64,000 bases of DNA from Komagataeibacter xylinus (GTDB taxonomy: Bacteria > Pseudomonadota > Alphaproteobacteria > Acetobacterales > Acetobacteraceae): positions 124,001 through 188,000 of the forward strand of contig NZ_JARWSK010000003.1 in NCBI RefSeq assembly GCF_031081985.1, read 5' to 3'. This document shows positions 14,859-18,459 of the stretch, piece after piece. A model generated the notes under the pieces. The model was not told the origin of the DNA. It saw nothing but the letters and a program-made list of their open reading frames with translations, and did no database searches. The translations under genes were made by a program, and so were the position numbers. Positions within the stretch are counted from its first letter, which is position 1. Every line of letters begins with the position of its first letter.

Positions 14859-15005
14859 TCAGAGAGGCGCGAGGCTGAGCGCGTAGAGGATTACCGCCAG
14901 CGCCGAAAGCGTAACGGCCACGGCCTTTATCCGCCCCCTGTGCCGGCGCAGCGCCTCCTGTGCTTCCTGCTGCGGGGTTGCCTGTGCGGTAACTGCTGGC
15001 TCCAT
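14859..15005 (-). CDS. 48-residue single-span membrane protein (CoxF-like position)
   Basis: A short protein, MEPAVTAQATPQQEAQEALR at the N-terminus, then a basic stretch RRHRGRIK and one hydrophobic segment (AVAVTLSALAVILYALSLA). In alphaproteobacterial aa3 cytochrome c oxidase operons a similar small protein with a basic patch and one membrane span sits directly after ctaB, sometimes called CoxF. Here it also follows ctaB, after 34 bases. The start at 15005 is chosen because upstream residues would overlap ctaB and look non-coding. Its function is unknown; assignment rests on position, size and topology. Confidence 0.65.
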   Translation of the reverse strand: MEPAVTAQATPQQEAQEALRRHRGRIKAVAVTLSALAVILYALSLAPL

Positions 15006-15039
15006 GAACCTGATCTCCCGTATGTGAAAACAGCCCGCT

Positions 15040-15993
15040 TCAGTGGGCGATGAAGGCGTGGTCAGCCAGCAGGCCAAGGAACAGGAAAAACAGATAGGCC
15101 AGCGAATAGCGGAAGGAACGGCGTGCCGGTCCATCGCCCGTCAGGCTGACCCCGTTGGCATCCTGCCTGTCGCGCAGCACGCCTATGGCGCACAGGATGA
15201 AGCCCGCGCCAAGCACGCTGGCCACGACCGTGTACAGCCAGCCTGCAAGGTGCATGAAAGATGGCACCAGCGACGTGGCGGTGAGAATGAGGGTGTACCA
15301 CAGGATCTGCCAGCGCGTGTGCCGCGCGCCCTTGACCACGGGCAGCATGGGAATGCCCGCCCGCCCGTAATCCTTGCACGCGTAAAGCGACAGCGACCAG
15401 AAATGCGGCGGGGTCCACAGGAAGATGATGCCGAACATGACCACCGGCATGATGGCCATCGACCCCGTGGCCGCAGCCCACCCGATCATGGGCGGAAAGG
15501 CGCCCGCAGCCCCGCCGATCACGATGTTCTGCGGTGTCGAGCGCTTGAGCCACATCGTGTAGATGACGGCATAGAAAAAGATGGAAAACGCCAGGATGCC
15601 CGCCGCCAGCGCATTGGTGGCAAGCCATAGCAGGATGACCGAGGCCACCGACAGGCCAATGCCGTAGCCAAGTGCTGCATCCGGTGCGATCCGCCCATCA
15701 GGGATGGGGCGGGTGACGGTGCGCTTCATCACCGCATCAATGTCGCGGTCATACCACATGTTGATTGCACCCGCGGCACCCGAGGCCATGCATACGCACA
15801 GGATGCTGACAGCGGCCACCAGCGGATTGATCGGCCCCGGCGCCATGGCCAGGCCGGCCGCACCCGTAAACACCACCAGCGAGATGACCCGTGGCTTGAG
15901 CAGCAGCAGCCAGTCACGCGCCAGCGTGCCGACACGGCTGGAATCATAGGCAAGGGCGGCCTCGCTGGCCGGGTTGGTTACGGTGCCGCTCAT
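15040..15993 (-). CDS. ctaB: Heme O synthase (protoheme IX farnesyltransferase)
   Basis: An integral membrane prenyltransferase that adds farnesyl to heme B to make heme O, the cofactor of bo3 quinol oxidases and precursor of heme A. The 317-residue protein has the UbiA-family signature NMWYDRDIDAVMKRT (first Asp-rich motif) and the second motif around LYACKDYGRAGIPMLPV. It has multiple hydrophobic spans and a PRVISLVVFTG N-terminal segment. I chose the second ATG (15993), which has AGAAGG 7 bases upstream. It starts 2 bases after the stop of the degenerate oxidase subunit I gene, so the two are cotranscribed. It may supply a quinol oxidase encoded elsewhere. Confidence 0.95.
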   Translation of the reverse strand: MSGTVTNPASEAALAYDSSRVGTLARDWLLLLKPRVISLVVFTGAAGLAMAPGPINPLVAAVSILCVCMASGAAGAINMWYDRDIDAVMKRTVTRPIPDGRIAPDAALGYGIGLSVASVILLWLATNALAAGILAFSIFFYAVIYTMWLKRSTPQNIVIGGAAGAFPPMIGWAAATGSMAIMPVVMFGIIFLWTPPHFWSLSLYACKDYGRAGIPMLPVVKGARHTRWQILWYTLILTATSLVPSFMHLAGWLYTVVASVLGAGFILCAIGVLRDRQDANGVSLTGDGPARRSFRYSLAYLFFLFLGLLADHAFIAH

Positions 15994-15995
15994 GG

Positions 15996-17357
15996 TCATG
16001 CCTTCTCGCGCGCGGGGGAGGTTACCTGCCATTCAGCCGTGCGGGCACCCGGCCCCCAGTAATTATCCGGCAGGGTGCTGCCCGGGCGCAGGCCCGCCTG
16101 CACCACAATGCCTGCAAACACCAGCACCGACAGGCCCATCAGCACCGCGCCCAGCACGCCCAGCGCCCCATGGAACGCCATCAGCGACAGCACGGTTCCG
16201 CCCACCGTCAGCCCGAAATGCAGGCGGCTTGCACCCACCGGGGCCACATGGCCCACCATCTTGCCAATCCAGTAATAGAAGCCCGCAAACAGCGCGAAGA
16301 CGGCGGCATACAGCGTTGCGGCATGCACATCGGCCATGCCGCCGGGCTGCAACGACATGACGGAGCCTGCCAGCAGCAGGGCCACGAAGCCAACCGCCCA
16401 TTCCATCGGCACGGAGGCCCGCATGTGGCCCAGCCGCACCGTCTGCGCCCATGCCACCAGCACGACCAGCACCGGCACCACGATCAGCCCGAGCTGCACC
16501 GCAGCCGAAGGCGCCGCCAGATGCGCAAGCCCGCCATGCAGCAGGTCATGCACCCATACGGAACTGCCACCCACCGACATGACCACCAGCGCACCCAGCA
16601 CGAGGCGCGGCATCTGCAGCGGGCGGGCGCAGAAGGTCTCGACAACCTGCGAGACGATGCCGATGGAAGGCAGCAGCAGCAGCGCGATCTCGGGGCCGGA
16701 AAAGGCATGCAGCAGCGCATCGATATGAGCGGAAACATCGCCACCGGCCAGCCAGATACGCGTCAGCCCGCCTGCCATGACCGGCATGACCATGACCGCC
16801 ATCATGCCCGCAAGCCCCTGTGCCCACACGAACAGGGGCAGGTCGCGCAGGCGCTGGCCCATCGGCCCCATGTTCAGCACGGTCGCCACCATGCAGATGC
16901 CCTGCATCAGCATGCCCAGGCACCAGCCCAGCAGCGCCAGCAGCGAAACCTGCGCGGGCAGCGCGGGCGAAAGCCCGGCCAGCACGGCCACGAAACTGGC
17001 CGCAACCAGCCCCCACCCCGCCAGCGCCACGCGCGGCAGCGCCAGCGCGCGGGCACGCAGCAAAAGTGGCACGAACCAGTTGCCAAACCCGCCCGTAAGG
17101 GCAGGCAACGCACAGAAGAAGACCATCATCATGCCATGGCGCTGCGCAATACGCTCCATGGCGCTGGGGGTGTCGCCCCCGGCCCAGGCATCGACCAGGG
17201 CATGGGGCAGCAGGCCCGCCTGCAGCCCCACCGCCAGCAATCCGCCCACAAGGCCCGCCACAATGGCCATGACGAGATACAGCATGCCGATGGTCCTGTA
17301 GCGACAGGTCCCCGCATCCTGCACCGCATCCGCCCCGAACTGTGTGCCTGTGGGCAT
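15996..17357 (-). CDS. Degenerate heme-copper oxidase subunit I homologue lacking the catalytic centre
   Basis: A 453-residue protein with about 12 hydrophobic spans, clearly homologous to cytochrome c oxidase subunit I. RHGMMMVFFCALPALTGGFG, the AVFALFAGFYYWIGKM segment and the C-terminal DNYWGPGARTAEW all align by eye. The low-spin heme ligands remain: H74 (helix II) and H345 (helix X). The catalytic centre does not. The CuB histidine of GHPEVY is G221 and its cross-linked tyrosine is A225. The HH pair of helix VII is H270-D271, the heme a3 histidine is D343, and the K-channel lysine is V299. The D-channel entry residue is A104. Helix X is preceded by a deletion. The ATG has GGGAG 8 bases upstream. 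There is no subunit II or III gene nearby; ctaB follows. It is intact, so it is probably expressed, but not as an oxidase. Confidence 0.82.
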   Translation of the reverse strand: MPTGTQFGADAVQDAGTCRYRTIGMLYLVMAIVAGLVGGLLAVGLQAGLLPHALVDAWAGGDTPSAMERIAQRHGMMMVFFCALPALTGGFGNWFVPLLLRARALALPRVALAGWGLVAASFVAVLAGLSPALPAQVSLLALLGWCLGMLMQGICMVATVLNMGPMGQRLRDLPLFVWAQGLAGMMAVMVMPVMAGGLTRIWLAGGDVSAHIDALLHAFSGPEIALLLLPSIGIVSQVVETFCARPLQMPRLVLGALVVMSVGGSSVWVHDLLHGGLAHLAAPSAAVQLGLIVVPVLVVLVAWAQTVRLGHMRASVPMEWAVGFVALLLAGSVMSLQPGGMADVHAATLYAAVFALFAGFYYWIGKMVGHVAPVGASRLHFGLTVGGTVLSLMAFHGALGVLGAVLMGLSVLVFAGIVVQAGLRPGSTLPDNYWGPGARTAEWQVTSPAREKA

Positions 17358-17523: not shown

Positions 17524-18237
17524 TCAGGCCACCATCGGGCTGGCGCAGTCATCCGCCTCACGATCGAGCGTTACGAGGGTGAACAGCCCCGCAGGCGGCA
17601 CCGGCTGCAGCGTTGCGCGGCGCAGGTCGGCGGGCGGCAGCAGGGATTCAATGGCAAAATCAGGATGCCAGCCCAGCGAGTGCGAGGCCCGCGCCATGCC
17701 GCGCTCGACCGCAAGCCTGACCCCGCCTTCGGCAAGGAAGTGGTTGACGAACAGGATATGGCCGCCCGGCCTGACCACGCGCTTGAGTTCGGCCAGCAGC
17801 GCGCGCGGGTGCGGCACCACCGAGGCCACGAACATGGCTACCGCGATATCGAATGCGCCATCCTCGAAGCCGGTGGCCTCGGCATCCATTTCCAGCAGGG
17901 CATCGACATTGGCAAGCCGCATGCGGGCAACGCGCTGGCGGGCGCGCTCGAGCATGTCACCCGACAGGTCGATGCCGGTAATGCGCTTGTCAGCCCGGTA
18001 ATAGGGCAGGGCCAAGCCGGTGCCCACGCCCACTTCCAGCACCCTGCTGCCGGGCAGCGTGTTCACCGCCTCGACCGCGCGCTTGCGGCCAAAGGTGGAA
18101 ATGCTGCCAAACAGCGCGTCATACACACCAGCCCAGCGCCGGTACGCGGCCTTGACCGCATTTGCATCCATCGCAGCGCGGGGGGACGGAATATCCACAA
18201 CCGTCTCGGCGGCTTCATTGGGCAGGACATCGCTCAT
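17524..18237 (-). CDS. pmtA: Phosphatidylethanolamine N-methyltransferase, PmtA type
   Basis: A 237-residue SAM-dependent methyltransferase. The class I motif LEVGVGTGLALPYYRAD and the following GIDLSGDMLERARQRV match the Rhodobacter/Agrobacterium PmtA group, as does the N-terminal AAYRRWAGVYDALFG segment. This enzyme methylates phosphatidylethanolamine to phosphatidylcholine, an abundant lipid in acetic acid bacteria. A UbiE-like quinone methylase is the main alternative, but the N-terminal motif favours PmtA. The ATG at 18237 has AAGGGAG 7 bases upstream. It lies 222 bases downstream of gshB with no clear signal in between, so the two may be separately transcribed. Confidence 0.82.
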   Translation of the reverse strand: MSDVLPNEAAETVVDIPSPRAAMDANAVKAAYRRWAGVYDALFGSISTFGRKRAVEAVNTLPGSRVLEVGVGTGLALPYYRADKRITGIDLSGDMLERARQRVARMRLANVDALLEMDAEATGFEDGAFDIAVAMFVASVVPHPRALLAELKRVVRPGGHILFVNHFLAEGGVRLAVERGMARASHSLGWHPDFAIESLLPPADLRRATLQPVPPAGLFTLVTLDREADDCASPMVA

Positions 18238-18459
18238 CGGGCTGCTCCCTTGTCGTGGCCGTGGAAAAGGGCATGGCCAGCCCCCTTCCGTGCTGCGTCT
18301 GCCATGATCAAATCCGTCCCATCGTGCTGCATTACAATTCCACCTGACCTGCCCACGCGCCACACGGCCCGCGCAACTGCCTGTAATCCCTATCCGGTGT
18401 CACGCCACAGGGCGCCACAGCCACGACCACCGTGCCTGCCATGAACACCGGTTCAATCT

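Follow-up and report, generated by a model that had tools for sequence, protein, structure and literature searches.

The loss of the aa3 oxidase from acetic acid bacteria, and the survival in them of a remnant ctaD gene, are already known, as far as the accessible portions of the published reports go. In those portions, the aa3 oxidase is stated to be absent from this group (PMC4007555), while a table footnote citing Matsutani 2014 credits Acetobacter pasteurianus with a cytochrome c oxidase as a further terminal oxidase (PMC4596401). In three A. pasteurianus strains the genes ctaB and ctaD carry consecutive locus tags and are conserved (PMC5158111), and ctaB of this species is stated to be functional (PMC6915089, citing Matsutani 2014). 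In yeast, according to the part of the source consulted, newly made Cox1 seems to be needed for the heme O synthase Cox10 to form multimers (PMC7140478). Our literature search found, within the same accessible text, no statement that the remnant ctaD keeps the low-spin heme ligands; a search for inactive heme-copper subunit I homologues returned nothing relevant, and a search for Gluconobacter essentiality data returned no relevant title. The gene analysed here, designated COX1L (a degenerate, COX1-like ctaD), is not a new family. What is new is the reading, a testable one, of a gene hitherto dismissed as deranged.

The window, i.e., the entire 64,000-nucleotide stretch of Komagataeibacter xylinus DNA under analysis, derives from a genome of 3.53 Mb in 16 contigs; the nearest named sequences are those of K. 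melomenusus and K. xylinus, with 98% identity in the COX1L protein. COX1L occupies positions 15996..17357 on the minus strand, with its ATG at 17357, its stop at 15996, and 453 uninterrupted codons between these limits, encoding a protein of 453 amino acids with 12 transmembrane helices. Downstream on the same strand lies ctaB, encoding heme O synthase (15040..15999); its longest frame starts at 16032, but the ATGA overlap with the COX1L stop makes 15999 the likely start. The end of ctaB is in turn overlapped by a small open frame of 91 amino acids (14859..15134, minus strand), which has one membrane segment as judged by eye and no match in Pfam or NCBIfam. In each of the 23 named relatives (L005-L027) a matching frame was seen 3' of ctaB, and Lichenicoccus gave a weak match. 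The upstream neighbour of COX1L is a pmtA-like methyltransferase gene (17524..18363, minus strand).

The preliminary description of this DNA had identified the frame as a homologue of heme-copper oxidase subunit I, 453 residues long and with about 12 hydrophobic spans, and both points were borne out. The Pfam COX1 model matched COX1L with 128.4 bits (E 4.5e-37; cut-off 34.8), whereas the NCBIfam CtaD_CoxA model gave 153.3 bits, below its curated cut-off of 670.75. An AlphaFold2 model built from an alignment that included canonical sequences (pLDDT 84.4, pTM 0.88) contained 12 long helices, and its first PDB match by Foldseek was subunit I of the Rhodobacter oxidase (3om3_A, TM-score 0.81). It could be argued that the COX1 fold was forced upon this model by the canonical sequences; this is countered by a second model, computed from 23 short sequences alone (pLDDT 77.9, pTM 0.84), in which the helices were nearly unchanged and the top PDB match was again Rhodobacter subunit I (2gsm_A, TM-score 0.76). 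By AlphaFold2, Foldseek and the Pfam match taken together, COX1L is predicted to adopt the 12-helix COX1 fold.

The surroundings of the gene speak to its origin. In Lichenicoccus the order is pmtA, the COX2 gene (ctaC), ctaD, ctaB, a small frame and the COX3 gene (ctaE), with tim44 farther on; in acetic acid bacteria it is pmtA, COX1L, ctaB and, in many, a small frame, followed by tim44 where the fetched stretch extends that far. The pmtA neighbour thus marks the site of COX1L as the ancestral ctaC-ctaD-ctaB locus, and the shared order indicates that COX1L is the old ctaD in situ, with the flanking ctaC and ctaE deleted. In a maximum-likelihood tree (a quick search that gave long-branch warnings), 49 short sequences formed a single clade with SH-aLRT 99, placed beside the canonical CtaD proteins of Acetobacteraceae and Acidocellaceae. 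An origin as a side paralogue or by foreign acquisition is ruled out by the ancestral position and the single clade. As judged from gene order and phylogeny, then, COX1L is the former CtaD of the Acetobacteraceae aa3 cytochrome c oxidase, orthologous in place; acetic acid bacteria would descend from an ancestor in which ctaC and ctaE were deleted while ctaD stayed put.

Residues were assigned by HMMER alignment to solved oxidases, using Rhodobacter subunit I, and by MAFFT alignment with 11 canonical CtaD sequences of Acetobacteraceae and kin. In both alignments, H74 (codon 17136..17138, minus strand) and H345 (codon 16323..16325, minus strand) fell on the low-spin heme ligand positions of helices II and X, respectively. 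The CuB histidine is replaced by G221, its cross-linked tyrosine by A225, the second histidine of the helix VII pair by D271, the heme a3 histidine by D343, the K-channel lysine by V299, and the aspartate at the D-channel entry by A104. All of these positions, the low-spin pair included, had been proposed earlier by eye, and each of them held in the alignment to the solved Rhodobacter subunit I as well as with the canonical CtaD set, so that the ligands do not fall elsewhere in the protein. Misalignment of the ligands is ruled out by the HMMER alignment to solved structures, the MAFFT alignment with canonical CtaD, and the out-of-sample sequences described below. The window protein also keeps H270, the first histidine of the helix VII pair and a CuB ligand, and E223, the inner glutamate at the end of the D-channel, neither of which is found in all relatives. 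At the six metal-ligand positions it therefore has H74, H345 and H270, and G221, D271 and D343 in place of the remaining histidines.

The window protein has undergone deletion of three surface loops, namely III-IV, IX-X and XI-XII. The histidine of the IX-X loop that is invariant in canonical sequences, which we take to lie next to the Mg site, falls in a gap in 102/116 homologues and is a histidine in none of the 116; the two columns of the XI-XII Arg-Arg pair, presumably the heme propionate contacts, are gapped in 115/116 and contain arginine in 0/116. The canonical arginine that we assume to contact the formyl group of heme A is glutamine in the window protein, and arginine is kept at the candidate position in 10/116, which, if the assumed role is correct, speaks weakly against heme A. 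As read from these alignments, the oxygen site, the proton channels and the surface loops have been lost from COX1L.

The 116 homologues, all from acetic acid bacteria, comprise 115 distinct sequences (L189 being the same as L023) and form 86 clusters at 90% and 43 at 60% identity, with identities to the window protein of 21-98% (median 27%). They were gathered in three sets. First of all, 36 sequences were assembled, consisting of the window, 23 named genomes of Komagataeibacter, Novacetimonas and Gluconacetobacter, and 12 others of the family, and both low-spin histidines were present in all 36. A second set of 13 more divergent genomes, found by profile, retained both in 13/13, bringing the total to 49/49; a sequence from a different oxidase (L148, genome G077) had been dropped before this count. 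The third, out-of-sample set consisted of 67 sequences for which profile match and the length of the frame were the criteria of choice, their histidines not being known beforehand: 39 from among the matches listed in a profile search of 394 genomes, and 28 from 29 additional genomes, the 29th of which (G202) has no COX1L. Left out of this set were further sequences of groups g1, g43 (of which two were kept) and g73, frames of canonical length, and the partial frames of G084, G130 and G414. Each of the 67 was a single open frame of 404-504 codons, and each kept both histidines.

Across all 116 sequences, only four columns are invariant, namely H74, W178 (codon 16824..16826, minus strand, helix V), W268 (codon 16554..16556, minus strand, helix VII) and H345, and these are also the only four to persist among the 253 columns that are invariant in canonical sequences. 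By our own arithmetic, which ignores relatedness, the chance that both named histidine columns would fall among 4 of 253 is about 2e-4. Canonical sequences have 14 invariant histidine columns; the two axial ligands are histidine in 116/116, and the other 12 are not fully kept. Specifically, histidine occurs at the CuB positions 221, 271 and 270 in 0/116, 10/116 and 43/116, respectively, at the heme a3 position 343 in 2/116, and in the H380 column in 97/116, while Tyr at 225 and Lys at 299 are absent in 49/49 and again in 67/67. On the 49-sequence tree, whose branches add up to 35.4 substitutions per column, both histidines belong to the 6 columns out of 365 without any change, whereas between 9 and 15 changes are required at the CuB, a3, Tyr and Lys positions. 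Two members of group g57 (L124 and L146, from G132 and G056) lie on end branches of 0.77 and 2.91 and still keep both histidines. It is to be noted that W178 and W268, as invariant as the two histidines, are a counterpoint to reading the pattern as a heme site; their invariance is probably structural, i.e., due to packing, and Trp in the W268 column is also found in the two other oxidases of the source genome. Helices I, II and X were better kept than VI-VIII among the 49 sequences (p 0.009, a value inflated by relatedness), but the difference was not significant in the 24 most divergent ones (p 0.16), so that preferential conservation of the low-spin heme helices is suggestive only.

Selection on the gene was measured by the Nei-Gojobori method on 21 pairs of seven Komagataeibacter sequences. 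Mean dN/dS was 0.176 for COX1L, well below 1, as compared with 0.093 for ctaB, 0.134 for pmtA, 0.094 for gshB and 0.045 for uvrB. Against Gluconacetobacter entanii (L016) the window gave 0.43 for COX1L and 0.16 for ctaB, and against Novacetimonas cocois (L018) 0.40 and 0.15. COX1L thus evolves at about twice the rate of CtaB; to judge from these ratios, it is constrained, though less tightly than its neighbours. Frame decay and neutral drift are ruled out by the dN/dS values, the column changes on the tree, and the open frames in 67/67. The earlier view that the gene, having neither stops nor frameshifts, is not a decaying pseudogene stands, since the window frame is open, each of the 116 matches lies in one open frame, and no frameshifted orthologue was seen among the sequences examined. 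Its further proposal, that the protein was selected for a new role and not for oxygen reduction, is supported by the kept histidines, the unheld catalytic residues and the dN/dS values.

What the preliminary description did not contain is the constant neighbour, which points to heme O supply: ctaB lies directly downstream of COX1L on the same strand in 116/116 sequences, including 67/67 out of sample. A four-base overlap of the COX1L stop with the ctaB start (ATGA or GTGA) was found in 35 of the 49 sequences checked, the window included; in the remaining 14, the first base of ctaB is 0-14 bases from the last base of the stop, and in L136 the two genes share that base. In the source genome, this ctaB is the only heme O synthase above the model cut-off. 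The two genes also tend to be lost together, and no COX1L without ctaB was seen among the genomes examined. Among 36 genomes selected from 150 (small genomes, those with weak or missing matches, and those with known short sequences), five had no heme O synthase above the cut-off, and all five lacked a COX1 match. Another eight genomes were examined, five picked for an absent COX1L match and three with it; five had no ctaB above the cut-off, and these were the same five that lacked COX1L. In the search of 394 genomes, 11 had no COX1L match, and nine of the 11 had no heme O synthase above the cut-off, although four of the nine are large (4.5-6.1 Mb) and may not be acetic acid bacteria. G202 (1.7 Mb, group g31) has neither gene, whereas the 21 other sampled members of g31 have both. 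Both genes are lost from G029, G066, G070 and G116 (1.9-2.1 Mb), and genomes of 1.9-2.2 Mb in groups g33, g41, g47 and g61 retain COX1L. Such co-loss is weak evidence, since adjacent genes can go together for trivial reasons. The other two of the 11, G031 and G077, do have ctaB: in G031 the contig begins at ctaB, and in G077 the locus is different. Against the tie to ctaB stands G001 (L147), which has the same locus, with pmtA followed by ctaB and COX1L missing between them. The ctaB of G001 scored 303.3 bits, the lowest among the 31 above the cut-off in the 36 genomes; COX1L is not indispensable there.

Elsewhere in the source genome are two other heme-copper oxidases, each with COX1, COX2 and COX3 matches. 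These account for the only COX2 and COX3 matches in the genome, and none was found at the COX1L locus. One of the two lies at C3:54493-57404 (L002, L129, L132), outside the window, and the other at C11:83642-86717. The COX2 frame of the former contains a CuA-type CxxxCxxxHxxM motif, which is absent from the latter; a cytochrome c oxidase thus seems to be present, even though the aa3 type is said to be absent from acetic acid bacteria. A heme A synthase is also encoded elsewhere in the genome. SURF1 was searched for in the source genome and not found, the same search being positive in two of 14 control genomes. The quinol oxidase that uses the heme is encoded away from COX1L, and in this genome no separate gene for a heme O synthase accompanies it.

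At the level of sequence, what is shown for COX1L, beyond the orthology and the losses described above, is that its two axial histidines are strictly conserved, that the gene is under purifying selection, and that ctaB always adjoins it. The two histidines are placed as in a bis-His membrane cytochrome, on helices II and X and, in the structural models, within predicted helices, and we consider it probable that COX1L binds heme. For a partnership with CtaB in the supply of heme O, the chances appear about even. The best explanation of the whole, that COX1L is a bis-His heme protein working with CtaB for the quinol oxidase, we regard as having roughly equal chances of being right or wrong. In this explanation, COX1L would have been kept as a membrane protein holding a single heme, either heme O or heme B, between H74 and H345; it would take newly made heme O from CtaB and pass heme to the oxidase. 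Alternatively, COX1L might be a subunit-I-like partner needed for active CtaB, with the bound heme serving as carrier or signal. The sequence of events may have been that aa3 gave way to a quinol oxidase lacking a synthase to go with it, that CtaB still needed a subunit-I-like partner, and that a stripped ctaD was kept; such retention would follow if the bacterial enzyme shares the need of yeast Cox10 for Cox1. On the other hand, A. pasteurianus ctaB reportedly proved functional when expressed in E. coli, in which case CtaB would be able to act in the absence of COX1L. With the loops over the hemes gone, the site would be more open, as might suit a carrier, although loss of constraint would explain the missing loops as well. 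The specific proposal that an oxidase catalytic subunit was pared down in situ to a dedicated heme carrier, or to a heme-sensing activator of heme O synthase, is a tentative one, with chances somewhat short of even.

Other readings must be weighed against that of a bis-His heme protein working with CtaB. COX1L could be a heme-free structural partner that stabilises CtaB in the membrane, as suits the constant ctaB neighbour, the two invariant tryptophans (probably packing residues), and the published proposal for a 'deranged COX1-like protein', as worded in the available part of that source (PMC10715153). This we consider unlikely, since it leaves unexplained why, among 14 histidine columns, it is only the axial two that never vary. 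It is more doubtful still that COX1L is an independent b- or o-type membrane cytochrome, either an electron carrier or a sensor of redox state, oxygen or NO, with its linkage to ctaB merely inherited. The bis-His low-spin site is indeed the electron-transfer heme of oxidases, and the linkage is ancestral, as the pmtA-ctaC-ctaD-ctaB-ctaE order of Lichenicoccus attests, and needs no functional cause; nonetheless, the electron entry side is gone, with the subunit II gene lost from the locus and the propionate loop deleted, no new partner gene has appeared there, and the linkage to ctaB is unbroken wherever COX1L was found. Lastly, that the gene is a relic, whose frame stays open solely because translating it supplies the overlapping start of ctaB, is largely refuted and very improbable: the frequent four-base overlap, the fast evolution relative to ctaB and the printed verdict of derangement (in the text accessible) favour it, but coupling would preserve an open frame and not particular residues such as the two histidines and two tryptophans, dN/dS is 0.18, the 12-helix fold is predicted even without canonical sequences, and the gene is kept in the 14 of 49 cases that lack the overlap.

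The delivery of heme O to quinol oxidases, and the matching of a heme O synthase to its acceptor, are poorly understood. As a subunit I stripped to its low-spin heme site and situated beside ctaB, COX1L could be a simple test system in harmless, genetically tractable bacteria, and it may show what remains, residue by residue, of the most studied respiratory enzyme in a fold that holds heme but no longer catalyses. If the tentative proposal of a pared-down carrier or activator is true, the acetic acid bacteria would possess a widespread heme-delivery protein derived from the core of a respiratory enzyme, and the former acceptor of heme O synthase would have been retained as its permanent partner after the quinol oxidase took over.

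In comparison with known systems, COX1L shares with canonical CtaD/CoxA (Rhodobacter 3om3/1m56; Lichenicoccus L041) the fold, the 12 helices and the low-spin histidine pair, as well as the position between pmtA and ctaB and a neighbouring branch of the tree. It differs in having no a3 ligand, cross-linking Tyr or K-channel Lys and at most one CuB ligand, in the deletion of the Arg-Arg loop, in the absence of ctaC and ctaE from the locus, and in its length of 453 amino acids as against 552 in Lichenicoccus. Its likeness to SURF1-type oxidase heme chaperones is in the proposed mode, that of a heme-binding helper, since COX1L itself has no SURF1 match in Pfam. To the Cox1-dependent multimerisation of yeast Cox10 it would be analogous in that a subunit I is tied to the heme O/A synthase, although the yeast partner is the real catalytic subunit and COX1L a dedicated non-catalytic one. 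The published remnant ctaD (Matsutani 2014; PMC10715153; PMC5158111), as described in the portions available, lies beside ctaB in Acetobacter and is considered to have lost its oxidase function; it almost certainly belongs to the COX1L family, its description as a COX1-like gene directly before ctaB being matched by every homologue collected here. The same portions state that all metal-binding residues are lost, in contrast to the unvarying low-spin ligands of COX1L. On the evidence of the alignments, that statement fails for these 116 sequences, none of which is named Acetobacter, where it may be right. COX1L thus bears on the printed claim, for in these sequences selection appears to have kept exactly one heme site.
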